Part shown: one piece after another, positions 2,528-21,172 of the stretch
Layout: every line of letters begins with the position of its first letter
Numbering within the stretch: position 1 is the stretch's first letter
Source: a virus
DNA: 22,109 nt
Strand: one strand, 5' to 3'
Virus record (IMG/VR): IMGVR_UViG_3300044638_009143
Span: 1-22,109 of that record
The notes under the pieces: model-generated
What the model saw: the letters and a program-made list of their open reading frames with translations, nothing else
Database searches by the model: none
Told to the model about the DNA's origin: nothing
Translations under genes and position numbers: made by a program

Positions 2528-5011
2528 TCATTCACCAAAGAATGGACTTGCGAACCACATACCATCTTCACAGAAATACCATTTCTGGCCTTGTGGGAAG
2601 GCTGGAACGGCATCGTCAGCAGCATTAAGATAGAACATATGTCCATTGTGTGCTGATTGATCGCCAGTTAAGTATGCAGCTGGGATTGTTTCAGCGGTAA
2701 ATCTTGGTGCTTGGAATTTACCATTTACTGTTACTTGATCAGCTGAACTATCACCGAGTGTTGCATTTCCATTTACAGTCAAATTACCAGCAACTGTAAC
2801 ATTGTCTGGTAAGCCGATTGTAATGGTTCCACTTAGACCAACTGCCGTTGATTCAGTGCCATTAACGGTTACTTCACCGGCTGTGCCAACAACAAGAACG
2901 CCTTCAAGTGTATCAACACGTGCATCAAGTGATTCATCACCAGAAATACGTGATGAAACTTCGCTTGATAGAGCAGTTGCTAATGAAGCATCGGCACTTG
3001 AACGTGAAGAAACTTCATTTGAAATAGCAGTTGCTAATGAAGCATCGGCAGTTGAGAGTTCACTTGCCAATGAAGCATCTGCACTTGCACGACTTGATGC
3101 TTCACTATCAATTCTTGTTGATAATGATGCGTCTGCAGTTGAGAATGCACTTGCTAATGAAGTTTCAGCTGATTGAGCACGAACAGTTTCTGCTGAAATC
3201 TTGCTATCTAAACTTGTATCAGCCGATTGACGATTAACAACTTCTGTGCTATCAGCTGCGGATAGTGCTGCTTCAACGCTTTCAGCACGTGATTGTTCTG
3301 TGCTGATTAATGAAGCAAGACTACTTTCAGCAGAAAGAGCACGTGAGGCTTCTGAAGAAATGTTTGCACTTAAACCGGTTGCAAGACTTGAAATTGCACC
3401 ATCAACACTGCCGTCTGCACTTTGGAATGCACTGACAATTTCTGCCAATGAATCAAGAGCAGCTGGATCGGTGTTTGAAAGAACATTATCAATTCTGGTT
3501 GATAATGATGCTTCTGCTGATGAAGCGCGTGAAACTTCACTGCTTAAATCTGCACTTAAAGCATCTTCAACTGATTCAGCACGTTCAATTTCATTTGAAA
3601 GAGCAGTTTCTAAACTTGTATCAGCAGATTGACGACCAGCAACTTCTGTGCTAAGATCGGCAGAAAGTTCTGCTTCAACAGATTGTGCACGTGCAGTTTC
3701 TGAACTGATTTCGCCACTCAATTCAGCTTCAACTGATTGAGCACGAACAACTTCACCACTTAAAGCGCTGCTTAAAGCGGTTTCAACTGAATCAGCGCGT
3801 TCTTCTTCGCTTGAAAGACGTGCTTCTAATGAAGAAAGATCTGCTGTTGCACCTGAATCAATTGAATCAATTCTTGCTGATAATGAAGCATCACCACTAA
3901 CACGACTTGATTCTTCACTTGATAATTGTGCAACAACACTTGCATCTGCACTTGCACGTGATGAAGCTTCTGTTGAAACAGCATTTGCAAGACTGCCATC
4001 ACCACTAATACGTGATGATTCTTCACTTGACAAAGCAGTTGCGAGGCTTGAGTCGCCACTTGCACGACTTGAAGTTTCGCTACTTATAAGACTTGCGAGA
4101 CTACCATCGCCACTAACGCGGGATGAAGCTTCACTTGAAATTGCATTATCAATACTGCCAACAGCACTTACACGGCTTGAAGTTTCAGCTGAAACTACTG
4201 CTGCTACACTTGCATCACCACTTACGCGGCTTGAAATTTCACTTGATAGAGCTGAATTTAAGCTTGAATCTGCGCTTTCACGAATTGATTCTTCGCTTGA
4301 TACGCGAGTTGTTAAACTTGCATCGCCACTAACACGTGCTGATTCTTCAGTTGACAAACGAACAGTTAAACTACTATCAGCTGAAGCACGTGTTGATTCT
4401 TCGCTGCTAACACGTGAATTTAAACTTGTAATACTACCAGTTAGAGAATTAACTTGTGAAGTTAAATCGCCAATACCTGATACTAATGCACCAGCGCCGT
4501 CACCATCAAGGAATTCTTGAATAGCAACAACAGTGCTGAGAGTGCCTGATAGACCTTCTGCACCAATTAGAGTATCAATTCTATTATCAACAGCTGTTTC
4601 TAAACTTGAAACTGCACTAATACGAGCATTTGTTTCACTGCTTAATGCACTGTTTAAACTTGCGTCAGCTGCAGCACGAACACTTTCTTCTGCAGATAGT
4701 CTATTATTTACTGATGTAAAATCAGAACCTTGACTACTTGAAAGAGCGCTTAATACTGCTTGAACATTACTACCATCGCTGGTTACAACATTTGCTGCAT
4801 CAACTGCTGCCAATGAAGCACTACCATTAGCGGCAACATGTAGAACCTTGCCAACGCCACCTGTTTGACCTTGAAGATCAAGAACAAGTGTGCCACTGAT
4901 ACGCATATCAACTGGCTTATGTTGACCGAATACTACTGTGCCATTTTCCATGATTTTAGCAACAACTGTGCTTGAACCTGAAACAACTGCAAAACCTTTT
5001 TGTTTTGACAT
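2528..5011 (-). CDS. Long repeat-rich tail fibre/appendage protein (827 aa)
   Basis: A fibrous structural protein. I chose the ATG at 5011 (MSKQKGFAVVSGS) because AGGGAGA precedes it and because the start then matches the neighbouring 183-residue protein (MSKGLSVVSGS). The open frame extends upstream to 5068 through unrelated sequence. Residues about 90-690 are mostly 18-residue repeats of the type SLATALSSEESSRISGDG, interrupted by two non-repeat insertions. One contains LSNTDPAALDSLAEIVSAFQ, a segment I recall from many marine phage fibres. The C-terminus (about 700-827) turns β-rich (VTVAGNLTVNGNATLG) and ends in an aromatic, Cys-containing tip (GQKWYFCEDGMWFASPFFGE). Predicted layout: small attachment module, long α-helical trimeric shaft, β-structured tip. 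It could be a tail fibre, whisker or head fibre; sequence alone does not decide. Confidence 0.75.
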   Translation of the reverse strand: MSKQKGFAVVSGSSTVVAKIMENGTVVFGQHKPVDMRISGTLVLDLQGQTGGVGKVLHVAANGSASLAAVDAANVVTSDGSNVQAVLSALSSSQGSDFTSVNNRLSAEESVRAAADASLNSALSSETNARISAVSSLETAVDNRIDTLIGAEGLSGTLSTVVAIQEFLDGDGAGALVSGIGDLTSQVNSLTGSITSLNSRVSSEESTRASADSSLTVRLSTEESARVSGDASLTTRVSSEESIRESADSSLNSALSSEISSRVSGDASVAAVVSAETSSRVSAVGSIDNAISSEASSRVSGDGSLASLISSETSSRASGDSSLATALSSEESSRISGDGSLANAVSTEASSRASADASVVAQLSSEESSRVSGDASLSARIDSIDSGATADLSSLEARLSSEEERADSVETALSSALSGEVVRAQSVEAELSGEISSETARAQSVEAELSADLSTEVAGRQSADTSLETALSNEIERAESVEDALSADLSSEVSRASSAEASLSTRIDNVLSNTDPAALDSLAEIVSAFQSADGSVDGAISSLATGLSANISSEASRALSAESSLASLISTEQSRAESVEAALSAADSTEVVNRQSADTSLDSKISAETVRAQSAETSLASAFSTADASLSTRIDSEASSRASADASLASELSTADASLATAISNEVSSRSSADASLATALSSEVSSRISGDESLDARVDTLEGVLVVGTAGEVTVNGTESTAVGLSGTITIGLPDNVTVAGNLTVNGNATLGDSSADQVTVNGKFQAPRFTAETIPAAYLTGDQSAHNGHMFYLNAADDAVPAFPQGQKWYFCEDGMWFASPFFGE
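2905..4718 (-). repeat. Array of 54-bp repeats encoding 18-residue units
   Basis: Within the fibre gene, successive units SLxxxxSxExSSRxSxDx recur with a period of exactly 18 residues in the clearest stretch (about 3890-4400), and in looser form over the rest. Roughly two dozen units are recognisable. The Glu-x-x-x-Arg and Asp positions are the best kept. The nucleotide copies have diverged, so this is an old repeat family rather than a fresh expansion. The low-complexity sequence also produces long spurious open frames on the opposite strand. Confidence 0.8.
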
Positions 5012-5138
5012 ATTTGAAAAATCTCCCTTAAATAAAGAAAACATATATATCGGCACAACGCCGAACATATGTGATAATAATTAGTAATAATTTTTATTAA
5101 AATCTATGCCACTTCACGACGATAAAAGGCACTTCAAT

Positions 5139-6648: not shown

Positions 6649-7250
6649 TATCCACCTATAATATCTGTTAGCAGGCGGTTGATTTTATCAGATTTATTGA
6701 AAATGTTTGGTGTTTTTTTGCTTTCACTTAAATTCATGAAAGCACCAACTGTTGAAGGTTCGCTTACGAAATCAAAACAAATAAGCTGGAAATCATCTTC
6801 AACATAAGTTAATCCGCCTTTTTCTTTTACACTTCCAAGACCGCGACTTGAAATACCAAGTTTAACACCGCTTTCAACAAGTGATTTAAGAATTTGACCG
6901 GATGGGGTTGTTAATACCTTTACTTTACCCATAACATCTTTTCCGTTCCACCAAATATCTGTAACAATATGTGAAGCGTTCTTTAAATTGATTACACTCT
7001 CATCTGGATGGTCAAGTTCTCCAAGAGCACGATTTTCTGCAATGAGTTTCTTATAGTTTTCTACTTCGCGACGAAGGATGTTTTCTGGGTATACACGACC
7101 ATTACCATTTTTGGCATCTGCTCTTTGAACAACACCTGAAAGCATCATGCCACCACTTTTAACAAATACTTTTTCTGCTTCTGTCAATAAATCCTGACAG
7201 ATGCCGCCTTCACAGAGTTCAAAATACTCTCTTAATAAAAACTTATTCAT
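6648..7250 (-). CDS. 21: Prohead core protease gp21
   Basis: Serine protease that matures T4-like proheads by cutting scaffold, capsid and internal proteins after (L/I)xE. The 200-residue protein carries the family's landmarks: RADAKNGNGRVYP near residues 43-55, ALGELDHPD with the catalytic His at about 81, and GVKLGISSRGLGS with the nucleophile Ser in the 134-140 stretch, followed by an acidic FDFVSEPS segment. Length is close to T4 gp21 (about 212). The ATG overlaps the upstream stop (ATGA) and has AGGAG before it. The N-terminus (EYFELCEGGICQDLLTEAEK) is acidic and may be removed by self-cleavage, as known for T4. Family assignment is firm. Confidence 0.93.
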   Translation of the reverse strand: MNKFLLREYFELCEGGICQDLLTEAEKVFVKSGGMMLSGVVQRADAKNGNGRVYPENILRREVENYKKLIAENRALGELDHPDESVINLKNASHIVTDIWWNGKDVMGKVKVLTTPSGQILKSLVESGVKLGISSRGLGSVKEKGGLTYVEDDFQLICFDFVSEPSTVGAFMNLSESKKTPNIFNKSDKINRLLTDIIGG

Positions 7251-8269
7251 ATTTTGACTCCTGTATATTTTTTCCAGTTGTTATAGAAATTGTTGTAAGA
7301 TTTGGATTCTTGCTGTGGCTCTGGTTGTTCTGTTGATAAATTATTTGTAATTCTTGGATCTTGTGTGTGTATTAATTTATTATATAATCTTTGACTTATT
7401 GCTAATCTACCTTCATTAAATAAAAATCCTATCACAAATTTTATTATTTCATCTGGTATAGAAGAGCCAGCAAAATGTTTTATTGTTGTATTAACAAGAC
7501 TGGCTATATACCAAGAGTTAAAATCAATTTGACCTATTTGTTGAAGAGAAGGGGTGGGTCTTGTATTATCTTCTTGTAATGGGCCAATTGTTGGATTTTG
7601 TATAATTCTTTTTGTTGATACAAGATGTTTTAAAACAGTATTAATATTATCTGAAGCATTCTTTTGTTGTTGAGAATTTAATTGAACATAATATGGAGTC
7701 TTAGAAAATTGAACTATACAACTATCGTATAAATTATTATAATCTTGTCCTTCTGCCGAAGACATAAGACTTCCATAATCAGGAACTACACCTATTCTTT
7801 TAGGTGCTGGTAATTGTAATGGTAATTTACCAGCCGGTGGCAATTCACCTGCAGTATCATCTTGCTGTTGTTGTGTTTTTTTACCAGAAGGTAAAGCAAG
7901 GCGAGGCTGCACAGTAGCGGATGCTGTTCCTCTTTCAACACCAGGTTCTTCAATTTCTGGTTCAATATCTATAACATCATTAGACATTGCTGTAGATGGA
8001 CGAGGAATTATTCCAGTTTGAGGTGTTTTTTCTGGCTTCTTTTCTGCTGGCTCTTTTTGTGGAACTTTATATCTTGCAAATGCTCTCCCAACACCAGCAG
8101 ATGCTTCCGGGTTTGGTTTGCGAGATATAATATTTGAAGCTTTACTTAATAATCCTTTACCAAGATCTTTTAAAGCAGAAAAAAGCTTTTCATCAATCTC
8201 TTCTTCGTTGATGAGATTGCTAAATTCCTCTTTTATAATCTGCTTTAATTCTTCTTCGGTAAGATGCAT
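7247..8269 (-). CDS. Probable internal head protein with capsid-targeting-like N-terminus (340 aa)
   Basis: No known family. Residues 1-15 (MHLTEEELKQIIKEE) follow the same pattern as two other proteins here: hydrophobic 3, Thr/Ser 4, Leu 8, Ile-Ile 11-12, Glu-Glu 14-15. An I-D-E at 25-27 fits the (L/I)xE site of gp21. Residues about 50-150 are Pro/Gln/Lys-rich and probably disordered. The C-terminal half (about 165-300) looks globular and helical (EIIKFVIGFLFNEGRLAISQ). The gene follows a similar-headed 213-residue gene by one base and overlaps gp21 by four bases (ATGA). Inference: a structural or ejected protein packaged in the prohead and trimmed by gp21. It could instead be a core protein without cleavage. 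Confidence 0.6.
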   Translation of the reverse strand: MHLTEEELKQIIKEEFSNLINEEEIDEKLFSALKDLGKGLLSKASNIISRKPNPEASAGVGRAFARYKVPQKEPAEKKPEKTPQTGIIPRPSTAMSNDVIDIEPEIEEPGVERGTASATVQPRLALPSGKKTQQQQDDTAGELPPAGKLPLQLPAPKRIGVVPDYGSLMSSAEGQDYNNLYDSCIVQFSKTPYYVQLNSQQQKNASDNINTVLKHLVSTKRIIQNPTIGPLQEDNTRPTPSLQQIGQIDFNSWYIASLVNTTIKHFAGSSIPDEIIKFVIGFLFNEGRLAISQRLYNKLIHTQDPRITNNLSTEQPEPQQESKSYNNFYNNWKKYTGVKI

Positions 8270-8270
8270 G

Positions 8271-8912
8271 CTATTCTCTTGGCATTATTCCAGATTGAGC
8301 GCCAATTGTTGGTGTTTTAATTCTTCTTCCAGAAGTGGGTGTTCCAGAAAATTTATCTTTTTGAACAATAGAATTTTCATATGTTTTTAAGAATTTTTGT
8401 TTTAATTTTTCATACCCAGTTGGATCTTGTTCTAATTTTGATAATTCTTTAGTAATAAATGTTTTATCAGCTCTTTTTCCATCATTTTCCATTTCATAAA
8501 CATATTTAATCAATCTCTCTGATGGAAGACGTTTCCCACCCTTTAAATCATCTACTGCGTTTTTGTAAGAAGTAGCTGCGGCTCCAATTCCTCTTTCTGA
8601 TGGAGTTATTCTTGATGAGCCTCGAGGAGTTATATTCGAATACATTTGAGTAACTTGATCCGATACTGCAGACACCAAATTTGTTAATGGTCTGTTTTCT
8701 TGTTTGCTTGCAGCGTTATGTAATTTGCCTAATGCTGTTTGAACGGAATCTATTTTGTTTTTTACTTCTTCATCCGAAACAAAGTCGCCAAATTGACTAT
8801 CACCTTTTCCGAGAAGTTTATCAAGAAAACCTTCGTCAAGCTCGCCCTCTTGTTGCATAGCTGCTAATTCTTCTTGAATTATTTTTTGTAATTGTTCTTT
8901 GCTTACTTTCAT
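8271..8912 (-). CDS. Probable internal head protein with capsid-targeting-like N-terminus (213 aa)
   Basis: I chose the ATG at 8912 (MKVSKEQLQKIIQEELAAM), with AAAGGAA upstream; the open frame extends 51 bases further without a signal. The first 15 residues match the motif of the next gene position by position, and L-D-E occupies residues 25-27, exactly where the neighbour has I-D-E. The rest is helical and charged, with a basic, Gly/Ser/Thr-rich C-terminus (SGTPTSGRRIKTPTIGAQSG). No enzyme motif is visible. The ATG overlaps the stop of a possible 42-codon ORF. The shared N-terminus and the location next to gp21 point to a packaged, protease-trimmed protein, but this is not proven. Confidence 0.6.
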   Translation of the reverse strand: MKVSKEQLQKIIQEELAAMQQEGELDEGFLDKLLGKGDSQFGDFVSDEEVKNKIDSVQTALGKLHNAASKQENRPLTNLVSAVSDQVTQMYSNITPRGSSRITPSERGIGAAATSYKNAVDDLKGGKRLPSERLIKYVYEMENDGKRADKTFITKELSKLEQDPTGYEKLKQKFLKTYENSIVQKDKFSGTPTSGRRIKTPTIGAQSGIMPRE

Positions 8913-9037
8913 TTTATAAATTCCTTTAAAGATAGAAGTGCGGGCGCAACCCGCACGATACAACTACCTTTGCAGCAGCGTCTTGAATTGGTTTGTGGTA
9001 AGAACCACTTGCGAACATTTTGATCTACTAAATTCAT
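8909..9037 (-). CDS. Doubtful 42-codon ORF between head genes
   Basis: ATG at 9037 is preceded by ACGAGGT at good spacing, and the stop overlaps the next start as ATGA. That is the same coupling seen at most real junctions here. The product would be 42 residues (MNLVDQNVRKWFLPQTNSRR, then CCKGSCIVRVAPALLSLKEF). Against it, the composition is odd and the 3' half is occupied by a GC-rich hairpin. A second frame over the same bases (8926-9018, starting MFASGSYHKPIQDAAAK) reads more like ordinary protein but lacks a ribosome binding site. Either a small gene, a frameshifted remnant, or simply a leader with a good ribosome binding site. Confidence 0.35.
   Translation of the reverse strand: MNLVDQNVRKWFLPQTNSRRCCKGSCIVRVAPALLSLKEFIK
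8938..8956 (-). promoter_or_regulatory. GC-rich hairpin before the 213-aa head gene
   Basis: GTGCGGG (8938-8944) and CCCGCAC (8950-8956) form a perfect seven-pair GC-rich stem around a five-base loop. It stands out in AT-rich surroundings. On the minus strand it is followed by UUCUAUCUUU, a poor terminator tail. It may be an attenuator, an RNA-processing or stability element, or part of a decayed gene. Confidence 0.4.
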
Positions 9038-14506: not shown

Positions 14507-14794
14507 TCATCTTATTTTGATTTCTAATTTATCTTTATTTGGTTTTGGTTCTATAACACCATTGCCTTTTTTGATAATCTGATCTTCCTCAACATCGTTT
14601 TCTTCTAATTTCCCATCTTCAGCCTGCTGAAGAATTCCTTCTGGATTTTTTACATTTCCATTTTCATCAGTTGGAACAGGTTTTTCTGTTGATGGAGCAT
14701 TTAAATCTTCTCCACTTATATCAAAAGTATTTTTTTCGTGAAGTTCAACTTCTTCACGAATAATTTGTAGTAATCGTGATTTAGTTATTTTCAT
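14507..14794 (-). CDS. Small acidic protein with capsid-targeting-like N-terminus (95 aa)
   Basis: ATG at 14794 (MKITKSRLLQIIREEVELHE) is chosen because AGGTGG lies upstream and the start overlaps the preceding stop as ATGA; the frame is open to 14821 without a better signal. The first 15 residues have Ser/Thr 4, Leu 8, Ile-Ile 11-12 and Glu-Glu 14-15, the same spacing as the two proteins next to gp21. L-H-E at 18-20 is a possible gp21 site. The remainder is acidic, Asn/Pro/Lys-rich and probably disordered, with no fold visible. It sits just before gp17. It might be an internal capsid protein, or a packaging accessory; I see nothing that makes it a small terminase. Confidence 0.6.
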   Translation of the reverse strand: MKITKSRLLQIIREEVELHEKNTFDISGEDLNAPSTEKPVPTDENGNVKNPEGILQQAEDGKLEENDVEEDQIIKKGNGVIEPKPNKDKLEIKIR

Positions 14795-15321
14795 TTTTTT
14801 AATCCACCTAATTTCAACCACTTCTGTAATTGTTCTGCTCGCTCAACATCTTTTTTGTCTTCTAATTTTGGCATATCAATACCGCCAATTTTATAATGAC
14901 ATTGTGCTGTAACGAAAACTCTTATTCTTGAGGTTTCTTCAACGAGCATCTTAATATCGCCGTGTTTTTGAACTGATAATTCTTTACCAGTAACTTTTTT
15001 AAATTCTTTCTTGAGATATTTAAGTGCTTCAGCAATATGGTCTTCAACTTGTTCTCCAAGTTTTGGACTATGTGCTTCTTCCAACTTTAATTCTGAGTGA
15101 TAACTGATGATGAGGCAAGGAAACGAACCATCTTTATCCGCATGATGCGTTACTCTGGCGCGAAAACCATCAAGGAGACGGCAATCACAGCTTGTGAATG
15201 CAGGAACTTCTTCACGGCGTAAACCGGCTTTTTTTAATTCGCCTTTTTCATCGCGAGCACCATCATAAGTTTGTGCCATTACTTGGGAAATTCCCTTTAT
15301 TACATCCATTAATTCAGCCAT
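14791..15321 (-). CDS. Conserved-type protein upstream of terminase, unknown function
   Basis: 176 residues, mixed α/β. Visible elements: an N-terminal helix (MAELMDVIKGISQVMAQTYD), a strand in a Cys/His-containing stretch (SFPCLIISYHSELKLEE), a long charged helix (VEDHIAEALKYLKKEFKKVT), then paired strands (SRIRVFVTAQCHYKIGGIDM) and a C-terminal helix. AAGGAGAC precedes the ATG. By position it could be compared with T4 small terminase gp16 (164 residues), but the α/β pattern does not look like gp16, which is largely helical. I therefore do not call it that. Similar proteins near gp17 in other T4-like phages are familiar to me as hypothetical. Confidence 0.6.
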   Translation of the reverse strand: MAELMDVIKGISQVMAQTYDGARDEKGELKKAGLRREEVPAFTSCDCRLLDGFRARVTHHADKDGSFPCLIISYHSELKLEEAHSPKLGEQVEDHIAEALKYLKKEFKKVTGKELSVQKHGDIKMLVEETSRIRVFVTAQCHYKIGGIDMPKLEDKKDVERAEQLQKWLKLGGLKK

Positions 15322-16750: not shown

Positions 16751-16791
16751 AAAATAAGCGCCAGCACATTAAAGGCAAGGCGCTTTATTTT
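16751..16791 (-). terminator. Intrinsic terminator after the holin-like gene (possibly bidirectional)
   Basis: AAGCGCC (16756-16762) pairs with GGCGCTT (16779-16785), and the stem can extend through AAAAT/ATTTT with one bulged base. On the minus strand the stem is followed by a T-rich run (ATTTTATTTAT). It overlaps the stop codon of the 80-residue gene and lies before the next start. The flanking A and T runs would also serve transcription from the other side. Confidence 0.8.
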
Positions 16792-17032
16792 ATAATAAAC
16801 TTTCTGGATTACTTCTGGTTGCTTGCCCTGATCTTGCTTTTGCATAATCTATAGCAAAGTTAGCAACAGCTTGAGTTCCAATATAAACCATGCTTATTTG
16901 CACCCAATCTTCGCCAGTTATAAAACCGAATGGAACACCAGCAGTAGCAACTAACCATACAAGGAGTTTTCTACTTACCATTTTTCCAACTAATTTATCC
17001 AAAACTTGTTGTTTAAACTTTGCCATATCCAT
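16790..17032 (-). CDS. Two-TM holin-like small membrane protein
   Basis: 80 residues: a basic amphipathic N-terminus (MDMAKFKQQVLDKLVGKMVS), two hydrophobic helices at about 23-41 (KLLVWLVATAGVPFGFITG) and 45-64 (QISMVYIGTQAVANFAIDYA), and a polar tail. Size and topology fit class II holins, and coiled-coil membrane proteins follow, but no endolysin lies in the window. The start codon comes directly after the stop of the gp46 remnant (TGAATG), and its strong GGAGG ribosome binding site is formed by the remnant's last codons. That shows it was once directly downstream of gp46. Holin is the leading guess; other small membrane proteins share this form. Confidence 0.5.
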   Translation of the reverse strand: MDMAKFKQQVLDKLVGKMVSRKLLVWLVATAGVPFGFITGEDWVQISMVYIGTQAVANFAIDYAKARSGQATRSNPESLL

Positions 17033-17221
17033 TCAAGCCTCCACATGTGCATAACCATCAACATTGTCAATAGTTATTTGTAGATCGGCAACATCTTTGA
17101 GTTCTGGAAGATGAGAAATAAGTATAATTGTTTTAAAGTGAGACTTCAACATATCAATTATACGCATAAATCCTTCCATGTTTTCTTCGTCAAGGGCAGT
17201 TGCCGGTTCATCTAATATAAA
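17033..17221 (-). pseudogene. Orphan 3' end of a gp46 (SbcC/Rad50-like ATPase) gene
   Basis: Translated on the minus strand this reads LIFILDEPATALDEENMEGF and on to DNVDGYAHVEA-stop. It is a second copy of the gp46 Walker B, D-loop and C-terminal H-loop region. Over the last 61 codons it differs from the intact copy (17999-18184) at six residues. In the first 25 of those codons I count ten changed codons, only one of which alters the amino acid. It has no start codon or ribosome binding site of its own and begins just behind the homing-endonuclease stop, so it cannot make a working ATPase. Its upstream LIF matches the usual Walker B context better than the intact gene's SDIM, suggesting it is the older resident sequence. 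Its end supplies the GGAGG for the next gene. Confidence 0.85.
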
Positions 17222-17223
17222 TA

Positions 17224-17937
17224 TTAATTTATATATGTTTTACCATATTTAATTCTTTTTATTGTAGAACGAGAAACATTATATTTTTCTGCTATTTGTT
17301 GTATTTTTAAAATATTTTCTTCTAAATCTCTCTTTATTAAATCAATTTTTTCTAAATTTAATTTAGAGTTTCCATTTTTAATACCTTTTCTTGTTTTAGC
17401 AAAATTACTTAATTTTTCTCTAAATTGTTTTGTTCTTTTAGAATTGTCTAATTTTTCTTTGTGAGGAATTATTTTTCCTTTTTTAGCATCACTCATTTTT
17501 TTTAATGTTTCATCCGTAAAAACTCTACCTTTTAAACTCTCACTAATTTTTTTCTTTACTTCTTCATCCATTTTTCTTCCAGTATTTAAAATAGATAAAT
17601 GCTTTTTTTGTTCTTCATTCATTTTTCTTCCGCGATTTGGACACTCTGTATATTTTGTTTTATTATAACCAAATTGTCTATCAAAAGACTTTGTTTCTTG
17701 GATGATATTTTCTTCTATAGATTTTAATAAAAATATTTCTTCAACCTCAATCATTACAATAAATTCAAAAGCATCTTCGCCGTACAAATTCCATGCATGT
17801 TGTAAATGTTCGTTCTCGTGTTTATTTTTTCTCAAAAGCGCTTTGTGTTTAACCCAGCGATTTTTTATATTAATACTGCTTCCAACATAAAATTTATTAT
17901 TTACTTTATTTAAAATTTTATATATCCCAGAAATCAT
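17224..17937 (-). CDS. GIY-YIG homing endonuclease, free-standing
   Basis: 237 residues from ATG 17937 (AGGTGGG upstream; a GTG nine bases earlier is less likely). The N-terminal GIY-YIG nuclease shows GIYKILNKVNNKFYVGSS at 4-21 with a following Arg (NIKNRW), and a later IEENIIQE segment that would carry the metal-binding Glu. Residues about 105-165 hold tandem NUMOD3-type DNA-binding repeats (GRKMNEEQKKHLSILNTG; GRKMDEEVKKKISESLKG; GRVFTDETLKKMSDAKKG). The C-terminus has a helix-turn-helix (ILKIQQIAEKYNVSRSTIKR) of the kind that ends I-TevI/Seg-like enzymes. The gene is even more AT-rich than its neighbours, typical of mobile genes. It lies between two copies of the gp46 C-terminus and is preceded by a hairpin over its ribosome binding site. 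Family call is firm; cutting in gp46 is inferred. Confidence 0.93.
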   Translation of the reverse strand: MISGIYKILNKVNNKFYVGSSINIKNRWVKHKALLRKNKHENEHLQHAWNLYGEDAFEFIVMIEVEEIFLLKSIEENIIQETKSFDRQFGYNKTKYTECPNRGRKMNEEQKKHLSILNTGRKMDEEVKKKISESLKGRVFTDETLKKMSDAKKGKIIPHKEKLDNSKRTKQFREKLSNFAKTRKGIKNGNSKLNLEKIDLIKRDLEENILKIQQIAEKYNVSRSTIKRIKYGKTYIN

Positions 17938-17940
17938 AAA

Positions 17941-17982
17941 ACCCACCTATTAAAATAGTTCATCTATAATAAATAGGTGGGT
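17941..17982 (-). promoter_or_regulatory. Hairpin sequestering the endonuclease ribosome binding site
   Basis: ACCCACCTATT (17941-17951) and AATAGGTGGGT (17972-17982) are perfect 11-base inverse complements. In the transcript the second arm contains AGGUGGG, which is the Shine-Dalgarno of the endonuclease ATG at 17937. The loop can form a further ATAG/CTAT pairing. Messages reading through from gp46 would thus hide the site, a control known for T4 I-TevI. The stem is followed by UUUUA, so weak termination is the other possible role. Confidence 0.65.
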
Positions 17983-17998
17983 CATCTAAAATAAATAC

Positions 17999-18184
17999 TT
18001 AAATTTCTACATGCGCATAACCATCAATATTGTCTATTGTTATTTGTAAATCTGCTATGTCTTTTAACTCGGGAAGATGAGAAATAAGAATAATTGTTTT
18101 AAATTGTGTTTTTAGCATATCAATTATTCTCATAAAACCTTCCATATTTTCTTCGTCAAGTGAAGTAGCGGGTTCGTCAAGTAT
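17999..18184 (-). repeat. Intact copy of the duplicated gp46 3' end
   Basis: The last 61 codons plus stop of the fused gene, repeated in diverged form at 17033-17218 in the same orientation. 55 of 61 residues are identical by my reading, while many third codon positions differ. This copy lacks the GGAGG that ends the other copy, so it could not have served as leader for the holin-like gene. Confidence 0.85.
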
Positions 18185-21172
18185 CATAATATCACTTACT
18201 GGAAGTGATGTTATTTTTGTTAAGGCAAGACGAATAGCCATAGCAGCAAGGCTCTTTTCAGCACCAGAGCAAAGTTCAAGTGGGCGAGCATCATATTTTG
18301 GATGTTTGATAAGAATGTCAAGTTTCTTGCCATCATCTTCAAAGAAAATTTCAAAGTTGACAATATTAGAAAGTATTTTAGCAATTTCCTCGTTGATTAC
18401 TGGGAGTTTCTTGCGAATAACATCATAACTAATTCCGTTGCTATGCATAGCCTTTTCAAACATGGCAATAGCAGCATATTCATCGCGCAGTTTTAGTAGT
18501 TCTGCTTTTGAATCCTGCAAATCTTTATATTTCTGTTCTAATGAGCCATATTCACGATGGAGTTTTAGAATGTTTGTTTCACAATCTGCAAGTTTCTTTG
18601 ATAATTTTGTTTTCTCCTCTGTTAGAGTTGATTTCTTGTTATTTAGTTCTTTTAGTTTTAGAGCAGTTTCTTCGTTCTTATAATAATCCTCAATTTTCTT
18701 TTCAAGTTTTTCAACTAAACCAATTGAAACAATAATTTTTCCATTTAGTTTTTCACTTTCAAGTTTCTTGTTTGATACAATCCCTTCCATATTCCGGATC
18801 TTTTCCAGAATAACATTGCGGGTTGTAATCACTTTTTCTATTTCATCTGGTTTTAGTGCCTTAACTTCTTCTTCAATCTGCTGCTTTTTGTTGCTTGAAA
18901 TCTTTACAAGTTCATTTTTCTTTTCCAGTCCATCTTTTTTAGCAAAAGCATCGGTCAAGAATTTACAAGTGGGGAAACTATCACCACAAGGAACTTCATC
19001 AAGAATTTTAATTGATTTCTGATCTCGTAGAATATCTTTTTCTACATCAGTTATTTCGCGCAATACTTTCTCTAAATCTTTATTTTTATCAGATAATAAC
19101 TGTTTCTTTTTGTTTAGATCATCAATTTTTATATCCGCAACAAGTTTTGCCGCATTATCTATTGCTGTTTGTTTTTCTTCAACAAACTTGGCATTTGCAG
19201 CAATATCACTCTGCCAACCTTCAATATCAGTTTCTATTTTCTTTAAAGATGTTTTTGCGGCATCAATATCAACTACTTCTATTTTTGGAAAAGAAGCAAT
19301 TTCAATATTAATATTGTTGATATTATCTGTGAGAACTTTAATATCTTCTTTTATGCTTTCACATTCAGTTGTTTGTAAATCAGCCTGCTTCTTTGATTCG
19401 CTCCCACGAATAAGTGTTTCGGCAATTTCTTTATCAAAGTCTTTGCTTTCAAGACGCTTTAGGGCTGCTTTTAATTCTGTAGCGTCATTATTTGATAGTT
19501 TATATTTCTTGGCAAAAAGTTCAAGGTCAAGGAATTTACCAAGGATTTCTTTACGACGAGTTGAACCCTCGTTGATAAAATCAAGAGAACCAAGTTGAGA
19601 AGCCATGGAGGTAAAAAGAAAATCTTCTAATGTTCCAAAAATCTTGCGAACATTCTTGTCGGTTTCATTACGATCAAGACCGTTTAAATTTCCCTTTTCA
19701 TAGGTAAGGCAATCTTCTTGTTCGCTTGCATCGCAAACACTAAATGCAACATCTGTTTTGGCTTCAAGCGTTTCTTCCCCGCCAAGTTTCTTGGTATATT
19801 TATCGGCTGTTCGTTCAATAATATAAAGTTTATCGTCAACAGTAATCTGGACTTCTGTTTTAGCCGATTGCTGATTTTGATTAATAATATTTACATTTTT
19901 ACGAACATTTTTGCTTGTTGAGTTTTGAATACCCCAAAGCAGACTATCAATAATACTTGATTTACCTGAGAAGTTTTTACCAAATACTCCAACAACGCCT
20001 TGCAGTTTTTCAAAATCTATTTTGTTGCCCGTGCCATAATTGAATAGGTTGTCCCATTTTAGGGACTTCAACGACCAACGGATATTACGAGAAATTTCTT
20101 CGTTCTCTTCGGCAATTGTATTATATTTTTTATTTATCTCAAATACTTTTTGTAGGACTTCTTCTGTTGGGTTGAAGTCTTTTAGATATTCACGAAGTAA
20201 TTTTTCTTGTGTTTGAAGATTGCGTAGATCTTCTGTATCAATCTTTTTGATTGTATCACTAATATCAATACGCTCGGTCGCTTTATTTAAAAATGATACA
20301 CTTTCAGGTAAGAATTTTACCTTGACTACATCAATAGATTTGCGAATATCGCTTACAGATAGGTTGTGCTCGGAAACAACACGAATACGAGCATCTGGCT
20401 TGATGTGAAGTGATTCATCAAATTTTCCATTCTCATCAAGTTTGATTGTGATAAATGGACGAGGATGAGGAACAATAATATGCCGAACATCAAATTTATT
20501 TTTATCTTGAATTTCCCAAATTAGGAAACCTTTATCGTCTGTTTCACCATGGTTCTGCTGGGCGGTGCTTCCTGGGTAACGAACGCGTCCTTCAGTATCA
20601 ACTATTTGATTTGTTTTGTGGATGTCCCCTAAAAAAGCATAATCGTGACCTTCAAAAATAGATACATCATGATCTGAATGCTCCAGTGTATAACCAATAT
20701 CGGTTGATACACCTGCAATAGCACCGTGATAAAGAGCGATATTGATACGCTCCGGATCACTTGGTTTTACCCATTTATCCTCATCAATAAGCGACATTAC
20801 ATTAAAAGAGAGTTTATCGCCAATTAATCTCTCTCCAGAATATTTCCAGAGAGTAAGATTTGGATGATTAAGAGCTGCAACAATAGGAGAAATACTATCT
20901 TGACGAGTATCGTTTTTTAGATTGCAGTCGTGATTGCCAAGAATAATATATGTTGGTGAAATATCTGCAAGTTCTTTGAGGAACCAAGAACACATTTCAA
21001 CAAATTCTGGTGAGATTTGATTTTTTGTGTGAGCGATATCACCCGTATGGACGATATAATCTGGCTTCTCTTGACGGAGAATATCAAAAATCTTGTTAAA
21101 AACAATCTTATATTCGTCGTGATATTTTAGGTTTCTTATGTGGGTGTCACTTATATGGGCGAGTTTAATCAT
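17999..21172 (-). CDS. 47/46: Fused gp47-gp46 recombination nuclease/ATPase (SbcD-SbcC, Mre11-Rad50-like)
   Basis: One 1057-residue chain joins the nuclease and ATPase that T4 encodes as separate genes 47 and 46; they resect DNA ends for recombination-dependent replication and host DNA breakdown. Residues 1-340 are the Mre11-like phosphodiesterase: ISDTH (7-11), HTGDIAH (42-48), LGNHDC (78-83), LYHGAI (147-152), LGDIHK (181-186). Residues 365-1057 are the SMC-like ATPase: Walker A GKNFSGKSS (398-406), long coiled coils around a CGDSFPTC zinc-hook-like turn (729-736), signature CSGAEK (968-973), Walker B IMILDEPATSLDEEN (996-1010) and ISHLPE near the end. The start overlaps the previous stop (ATGA). 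The last 61 codons are probably donated by the homing element, making the gene a hybrid. No stop or frameshift separates the halves. Confidence 0.93.
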   Translation of the reverse strand: MIKLAHISDTHIRNLKYHDEYKIVFNKIFDILRQEKPDYIVHTGDIAHTKNQISPEFVEMCSWFLKELADISPTYIILGNHDCNLKNDTRQDSISPIVAALNHPNLTLWKYSGERLIGDKLSFNVMSLIDEDKWVKPSDPERINIALYHGAIAGVSTDIGYTLEHSDHDVSIFEGHDYAFLGDIHKTNQIVDTEGRVRYPGSTAQQNHGETDDKGFLIWEIQDKNKFDVRHIIVPHPRPFITIKLDENGKFDESLHIKPDARIRVVSEHNLSVSDIRKSIDVVKVKFLPESVSFLNKATERIDISDTIKKIDTEDLRNLQTQEKLLREYLKDFNPTEEVLQKVFEINKKYNTIAEENEEISRNIRWSLKSLKWDNLFNYGTGNKIDFEKLQGVVGVFGKNFSGKSSIIDSLLWGIQNSTSKNVRKNVNIINQNQQSAKTEVQITVDDKLYIIERTADKYTKKLGGEETLEAKTDVAFSVCDASEQEDCLTYEKGNLNGLDRNETDKNVRKIFGTLEDFLFTSMASQLGSLDFINEGSTRRKEILGKFLDLELFAKKYKLSNNDATELKAALKRLESKDFDKEIAETLIRGSESKKQADLQTTECESIKEDIKVLTDNINNINIEIASFPKIEVVDIDAAKTSLKKIETDIEGWQSDIAANAKFVEEKQTAIDNAAKLVADIKIDDLNKKKQLLSDKNKDLEKVLREITDVEKDILRDQKSIKILDEVPCGDSFPTCKFLTDAFAKKDGLEKKNELVKISSNKKQQIEEEVKALKPDEIEKVITTRNVILEKIRNMEGIVSNKKLESEKLNGKIIVSIGLVEKLEKKIEDYYKNEETALKLKELNNKKSTLTEEKTKLSKKLADCETNILKLHREYGSLEQKYKDLQDSKAELLKLRDEYAAIAMFEKAMHSNGISYDVIRKKLPVINEEIAKILSNIVNFEIFFEDDGKKLDILIKHPKYDARPLELCSGAEKSLAAMAIRLALTKITSLPVSDIMILDEPATSLDEENMEGFMRIIDMLKTQFKTIILISHLPELKDIADLQITIDNIDGYAHVEI

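Follow-up and report, generated by a model that had tools for sequence, protein, structure and literature searches.

The window, meaning the whole stretch of DNA analysed here, is a 22,109-nt virus record (IMG/VR IMGVR_UViG_3300044638_009143) that encodes a terminase large subunit, portal, head maturation protease, major head protein and primase. On its minus strand a fused gp47/46 gene is followed by a GIY-YIG gene, a repeat of the final 61 codons of gp46 and an 80-aa gene, all in the same orientation. The fused gene is a single complete ORF (21172-17999, 1057 aa) in which Pfam finds a metallophosphatase and an SMC/ABC-ATPase (Metallophos and SMC_N/AAA_23). The GIY-YIG ORF spans 17946-17224, with the ATG at 17937 as its likeliest start, and the second gp46 end (17223-17033) stops in a TGA that abuts the ATG of the 80-aa gene at 17032. 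We refer to the gp46 end now in use as tail 1 and to the downstream copy as tail 2.

18185-21172, minus: gp47/46 body (Mre11/Rad50-like recombination nuclease), the resident part (ORF; Pfam)
17999-18184, minus: tail 1, the C-terminus that gp46 now uses, from Walker B onward (nucleotide identity; tree; nucleotide alignment)
17957-17997, minus: two near-copies of the predicted target half-site TATTTATATTAGATGAACC (site search; same pair in L003)
17940-17983, minus: hairpin across the endonuclease ribosome-binding region, CCCACCTATT...AATAGGTGGG (fold energy)
17224-17937, minus: predicted GIY-YIG homing endonuclease gene with GIY-YIG, NUMOD3 and C-terminal HTH parts (Pfam, PHROG, structure-sequence alignment)
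17033-17223, minus: tail 2, read as the displaced resident gp46 C-terminus (L064 identity; tree; gene-end alignments)
16790-17032, minus: 80-aa gene, next to gp46 in insert-free relatives (protein identity in relatives)

Tail 1 and tail 2 form a 179-nt direct repeat of 82% identity, by far the longest repeat in the region, and a chance origin of their likeness is excluded. Of 61 encoded residues 55 are shared (56 of 62 over the alignment), a different codon is used for 22 of those 56, and the two copies are separated by a dS of 1.6 and a dN of 0.067. A preliminary description of the locus had reported a complete fused gp47/46 gene, then a GIY-YIG gene, then an in-frame 61-codon gp46 tail; the ORFs bear out its coordinates, its count of 55/61 and its TGA touching the next ATG are exact, and the many synonymous differences it pointed to are reflected in the codon and dS figures. 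Tail 2 lacks a conserved start codon of its own. It starts with the native half-site, exactly behind the endonuclease stop, and ends with GGAGGCTTGA, which includes the Shine-Dalgarno sequence for the 80-aa gene. Gene-end alignments place the GGAGG of the 80-aa gene within the last codons of native gp46, and this GGAGG has been lost from the end of tail 1, which thus lacks a Shine-Dalgarno sequence and is also recoded, reading DIMILDEP where the native sequence has D-F-ILDEP.

Elsewhere in the window, 2528-5068 encodes a fibre-like protein with many SSRVSGDASL-type repeats. Three different proteins (14507-14821, 7247-8269 and 8271-8963) share the N-terminal tag M-(K/H)-(I/V/L)-(T/S)-x3-L-x2-II-x-EE, which also occurs in the unrelated contig L186 and is possibly a virion-assembly or protease-cleaved leader.

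The endonuclease, its leader and a second copy of the element

The GIY-YIG protein matches PF01541 (7e-11), with PF07460 (NUMOD3) and PF02796 (HTH) above cut-off, and a homing endonuclease family in PHROG (7e-31). It aligns to the I-TevI catalytic domain (1mk0/1ln0, 7e-11) with the catalytic R and E kept; these two reference chains each lack one catalytic residue, and the enzymes of the window and of L003 have both. Judged by these matches, it is an I-TevI-like GIY-YIG homing endonuclease with a modular DNA-binding part. The intact catalytic residues and the divergence between the window and L003-type enzymes (pS 0.51, pN 0.21) point to a protein under constraint. A search for relatives in GTDB genome contigs found none. 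Other GIY-YIG genes, about 32–35% identical, lie in relatives bearing gp47/46, at L001:127-879 (upstream of gp47) and L080:8807-9355.

The same order of gp46 body, tail, leader, endonuclease, second tail and 80-aa gene, with the same junctions, is found in L003 and L067, which come from two IMG samples and are identical in sequence across the locus. Their endonuclease is 66–67% identical to that of the window and sits at the same insertion site, and in both elements the native half-site TATTTATATTAGAYGARCC begins directly behind the endonuclease stop. Because a diverged copy thus occupies the same site, we regard the insert as an established element rather than an accident or misassembly; misassembly is further excluded by sample 3300047550, which holds both the insert-bearing L067 and the insert-free L065 of the same phage group. 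The tail 1 sequences of the two elements are not sisters (p-AU 0.032), so that tail 1 appears to exchange with resident alleles, and we rejected the idea that it is fixed cargo inherited with the endonuclease. The M-for-F recoding was likewise rejected as a mark unique to the element, as DIMILDEP also occurs in the distant gp46 of L133 and L134.

The leader that separates tail 1 from the endonuclease gene contains two near-copies of TATTTATATTAGATGAACC, the half-site, 22 nt apart, at 17979-17997 (2 mismatches) and 17957-17975 (3 mismatches); the search found three sites where 0.02 were expected. L003 has the same pair at the same spacing upstream of its endonuclease, and conservation over the 60 columns of the leader block is 85%, compared with 73% for the endonuclease coding DNA. 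In the window a strong hairpin covers the ribosome-binding region of the endonuclease (-20.1 kcal/mol, z -5.6), and the L003 leader folds as well (z -3.3), by a different stem. In T4, I-TevI has a homing-site-like operator upstream of its ORF that is bound but poorly cut, and homing-site-like operators stand, by sequence, upstream of the I-TevII and I-TevIII ORFs (PMC2988022). By analogy with I-TevI, the two copies are probably operators of the endonuclease gene, and we infer that the endonuclease may repress its own expression through them; alternatively, the copies could be relics of earlier insertions.

Origin of the two gp46 tails

At 28% identity, the named relatives of gp47/46 are remote, and IMG/VR contributed 67 loci with relatives, including six close ones that are free of the insert (L001, L002, L004, L064, L065 and L066). 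The preliminary description had expected that gp46 would run straight into the 80-aa gene where the insert is missing, and this is the arrangement in L001, L002, L004, L064 and L065; the L064 junction is the window's TGAATG, GGAGGCTTGAATG. In L066 a 26-nt gap separates the two genes. Across all six relatives the protein of the 80-aa gene is 64–86% identical to that of the window. There (L066:540-600) the insert-free gp46 end is tail 1-like and the 26 nt before the 80-aa gene carry their own Shine-Dalgarno sequence, an arrangement that could be another scar.

Tail 2 is 96% identical in nucleotides to the gp46 end of L064, with 7 differences, one amino acid change and a dS of 0.18, while tail 1 is 82% identical to L064 and closest to L066 (87%) and L004 (86%); with nearest matches at this level, tail 1 looks mosaic. 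Trees built on 177 nt only place tail 2 with L064 (support 99/96) and tail 1 with L004 (94/92); forcing tail 1 and tail 2 into one clade costs 19.1 log-likelihood units and is rejected (p-AU 0.019). The body of the gene falls with L064 and L004 in the tree, and in the alignment it is like both upstream of about 18200; from about 18200 onward the gene is L004-like and diverges from L064. Both tails are in frame and intact with low dN/dS. Because of the match of tail 2 to L064, the trees and the rejection of a joint clade, we read the downstream tail as the resident one and the tail now in use as foreign. The earlier proposal that the tails derive from two related phages rather than from a recent tandem duplication is thus upheld. 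Its companion, that a donor brought its own tail and pushed the resident one downstream, stands for the displacement and for the foreign origin of the tail in use, but the tail has not been inherited unchanged with the element.

L004 carries no insert and yet is near-identical to the tail 1-type sequence of the window around the insertion site, with 4 of 120 nt mismatched there, the minimum along the gene (body mean 13.8%), after which its gp46 reverts to a native-type end. Such a pattern would be expected if the two tails had recombined and the element had been lost, or if the recoded allele spread alone; it is also possible that L004 represents the donor lineage.

Similar layouts at other genes

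We surveyed 104 distinct places of GIY-YIG endonuclease genes, annotated phages included and the window counted once, by comparing the 900 nt before with the 900 nt after each endonuclease for translated repeats (score ≥45, starting -15 to +12 nt from the endonuclease stop). At 7 of the 104, compared with 0.10 expected (4 of 4000 random pairings), a copy of a gene end began at the endonuclease stop. Three are tail-type, namely the window, L181 with 57 aa of a dCMP deaminase (PF00383) and a weak case of 8 aa in L204. The other four are head-type, in which a short displaced N-terminus precedes the endonuclease and the full gene starts at the endonuclease stop: L198 (adenylosuccinate synthetase), L166 (PHP-domain polymerase), L168 (cold-shock protein) and L189 (no function assigned). 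At L198:3889-4642 the displaced 12-residue adenylosuccinate synthetase head is MIDYADVVVDLA and the used head lies behind the endonuclease; the two are identical at 12 of 12 residues and 27 of 36 nt (75%). In several cases the break falls in or beside a conserved motif: Walker B in gp46, next to HAE in the deaminase, before GDSGKGK in PurA, within the PHP signature and within the cold-shock domain.

The deaminase locus permits the same comparison as gp46. Up to HAEI, the L181 body is identical in amino acids and 89% identical in nucleotides to the insert-free L236/L237, and the gene after the deaminase is 88% identical to theirs. The displaced tail of L181 is 88% identical in nucleotides to the native tail of L236, the used tail only 56%, and the AU test rejects grouping the two tails of L181 together (p-AU 0.033). 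By these identities L181 is an independent parallel, with the displaced tail native and the used tail foreign. L239 (2501-3530) carries a dCMP deaminase, 12 nt and then a GIY-YIG gene, with no displaced tail, which is possibly the end state after loss of that tail, or the donor arrangement.

Other survey hits were discarded: L199 (clamp-loader paralogs), L206 (low complexity), L200 (a 47-nt repeat away from the junctions) and a hit in L186 caused by the recurring MKITxxxLxxIIxEE tag. A separate primase zinc-finger match in L186 is a possible head-type case with extra cargo. We found no comparable displaced gene end at T4 segG, mobE and I-TevI or beside the endonuclease genes of 15 further annotated phage records, where a short V1SA19 match (23 aa) was put down to putative intron-associated repeats and an LR745208 match to N-terminal paralogs. 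Among named phages, relatives of the head-type cases were absent for L189 and too distant for L198. The preliminary description holds in its main points but was too narrow in scope: the element also occurs in L003/L067 and its layout recurs at other genes, as in L181. We propose a class of phage elements in two polarities, well supported for the tail-type, which would rebuild a C-terminus (gp46, dCMP deaminase), and suggestive for the head-type, which would rebuild an N-terminus (adenylosuccinate synthetase, the DNA polymerase PHP domain, cold-shock protein and, possibly, primase).

Proposed mechanism, rival explanations and known systems

The locus very probably holds a mobile, intron-less homing element composed of a recoded gp46 C-terminus, an operator leader and an I-TevI-like GIY-YIG endonuclease, inserted at the Walker B codons of gp46; cutting at the Walker B site, homing, immunity and autorepression are what its sequence would imply. 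In a mixed infection, the endonuclease would cut insert-free gp46 just upstream of TATTTATATTAGATGAACC, a few nt from the TATTTATATTAG border of the site. Repair off the element-bearing phage would copy tail 1, leader and endonuclease gene and rejoin native sequence at the cut, so that the gp46 body would now read into tail 1, the protein staying whole and the old tail shifting behind the endonuclease stop. The new allele would be resistant to the enzyme by virtue of the recoding of tail 1 and the absence of the site's upstream half from tail 2. Tail 2 would be kept as the right-hand homology arm in any transfer, and because native gp46 ends in codons that include the GGAGG for the 80-aa gene, which tail 1 lacks. 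One-sided repair is the best single model: a cut gene end would invade the homologous gene of an endonuclease-bearing phage, that gene's end and the adjacent endonuclease gene would be copied, and the extended end would be reunited at the cut with the second broken end. Both flanks would serve in later transfers.

Classical intergenic homing of the T4 SegF/SegG type, with the tail differences as a co-conversion tract only, draws on the T4 norm of a free-standing endonuclease beside the gene it cuts (PMC2988022) and on L239, where the endonuclease follows the deaminase directly without a second tail. Such homing replaces the recipient tail and leaves none displaced, whereas in the window, L003 and L181 the native tail persists from exactly the endonuclease stop, and L239 may be what is left once a displaced tail is lost; we consider this explanation improbable. 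We give even less credence to an unrecognised self-splicing intron, by which the gp46 body would be spliced to tail 2, with tail 1 and the endonuclease intronic and tail 1 an alternative C-terminus. Both tails are in frame with low dN/dS, and T4-type GIY-YIG enzymes are frequently intron-borne, but body and tail 1 make a complete reading frame, neither this region nor L003 matched a group I or any other intron in Rfam at gathering or relaxed thresholds, and the roughly 60 nt that belong neither to tail 1 nor to the endonuclease gene could not accommodate a group I core. An intein was rejected because gp46 stops before the endonuclease and no single ORF runs through the insert. A local tandem duplication of the gp46 end, its copies now parted by an inserted endonuclease gene, would account for two tandem tails that agree so closely in protein, but the grouping of tail 2 with L064, the rejected joint clade and a dS of 1.6 between the copies, compared with 0.18 between tail 2 and L064, leave it a slighter chance again, and duplication was rejected at the L181 deaminase as well. 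Least probable of all is a device by which the phage recombines two tails to vary gp46, since, even if L004 with its tail 1-type start and native-type end shows that such recombination occurs, the near-identical proteins would offer little gain and the endonuclease and its target site explain the layout without it.

The homing element that we propose resembles the hybrid genes of fungal mitochondria, the atp6-type precedent that the preliminary description named: in Glomus atp6, atp9, cox2 and nad3 the gene uses a foreign C-terminus and its native one has been displaced (PMC3630166), and an Allomyces atp6 hybrid gene is cited there from Paquin 1994. In both, a conserved gene has received a foreign, mostly synonymously diverged C-terminus together with an endonuclease ORF, and the native C-terminus now lies farther downstream, where it matches that of relatives without the insert; the enzyme is of the GIY-YIG type, as in Glomus atp9. 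The gp46 element differs in its phage rather than organellar host, its recombination ATPase target, its different, I-TevI-like enzyme, the target-site copies upstream of the endonuclease and the ribosome-binding site of the next gene inside the displaced tail, and mirror-image head-type cases exist alongside it. It would thus work like the fungal elements, and we file it as a GIY-YIG homing element rather than as a member of that group, the likeness being likely convergence. We found no report of such an element in phages in open-access full text, which covers few subscription papers.

With T4 I-TevI of the td intron, the enzyme shares the catalytic domain (E 7e-11), NUMOD3 and the C-terminal HTH layout, a homing-site-like sequence upstream of its own ORF (an operator in I-TevI, PMC2988022) and a hairpin near the start, but it is not intron-borne and brings a replacement coding tail instead of splicing. 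Like the free-standing T4 Seg endonucleases, it is a GIY-YIG enzyme beside the gene that it probably cuts, without a splicing element, but here the native gene end is kept behind the enzyme gene, whereas the T4 segG, mobE and I-TevI loci have no duplicated gene end. In phage Aeh1, mobE in nrdA and similar split genes also place an endonuclease within the coding region of a conserved gene (PMC2988022); there the gene yields two polypeptides, whereas the gp46 element supplies a new end and leaves the protein whole.

Free-standing homing endonucleases are generally described as confined to intergenic targets, sparing genes (PMC13405050). The elements described here suggest a bypass of that limit, in which the missing gene end is brought along, recoded against cutting, and the layout may be a route for selfish endonuclease genes into coding sequence without an intron. 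In T4, gp46/47 is the nuclease that processes the breaks needed for homing, so that, by its T4 counterpart, the target here would itself be the homing-break-processing nuclease. On balance, we favour the broader view that phages host homing elements without introns whose points of entry are active-site codons of essential genes and which carry the short side of the gene in recoded form, the displaced native end being a transitional state whose loss leaves an apparently free-standing endonuclease. If true, loss of the displaced end would explain how free-standing endonucleases come to adjoin conserved phage genes and would give them a testable origin, and the hybrid core genes that such elements create could mislead phage gene trees.
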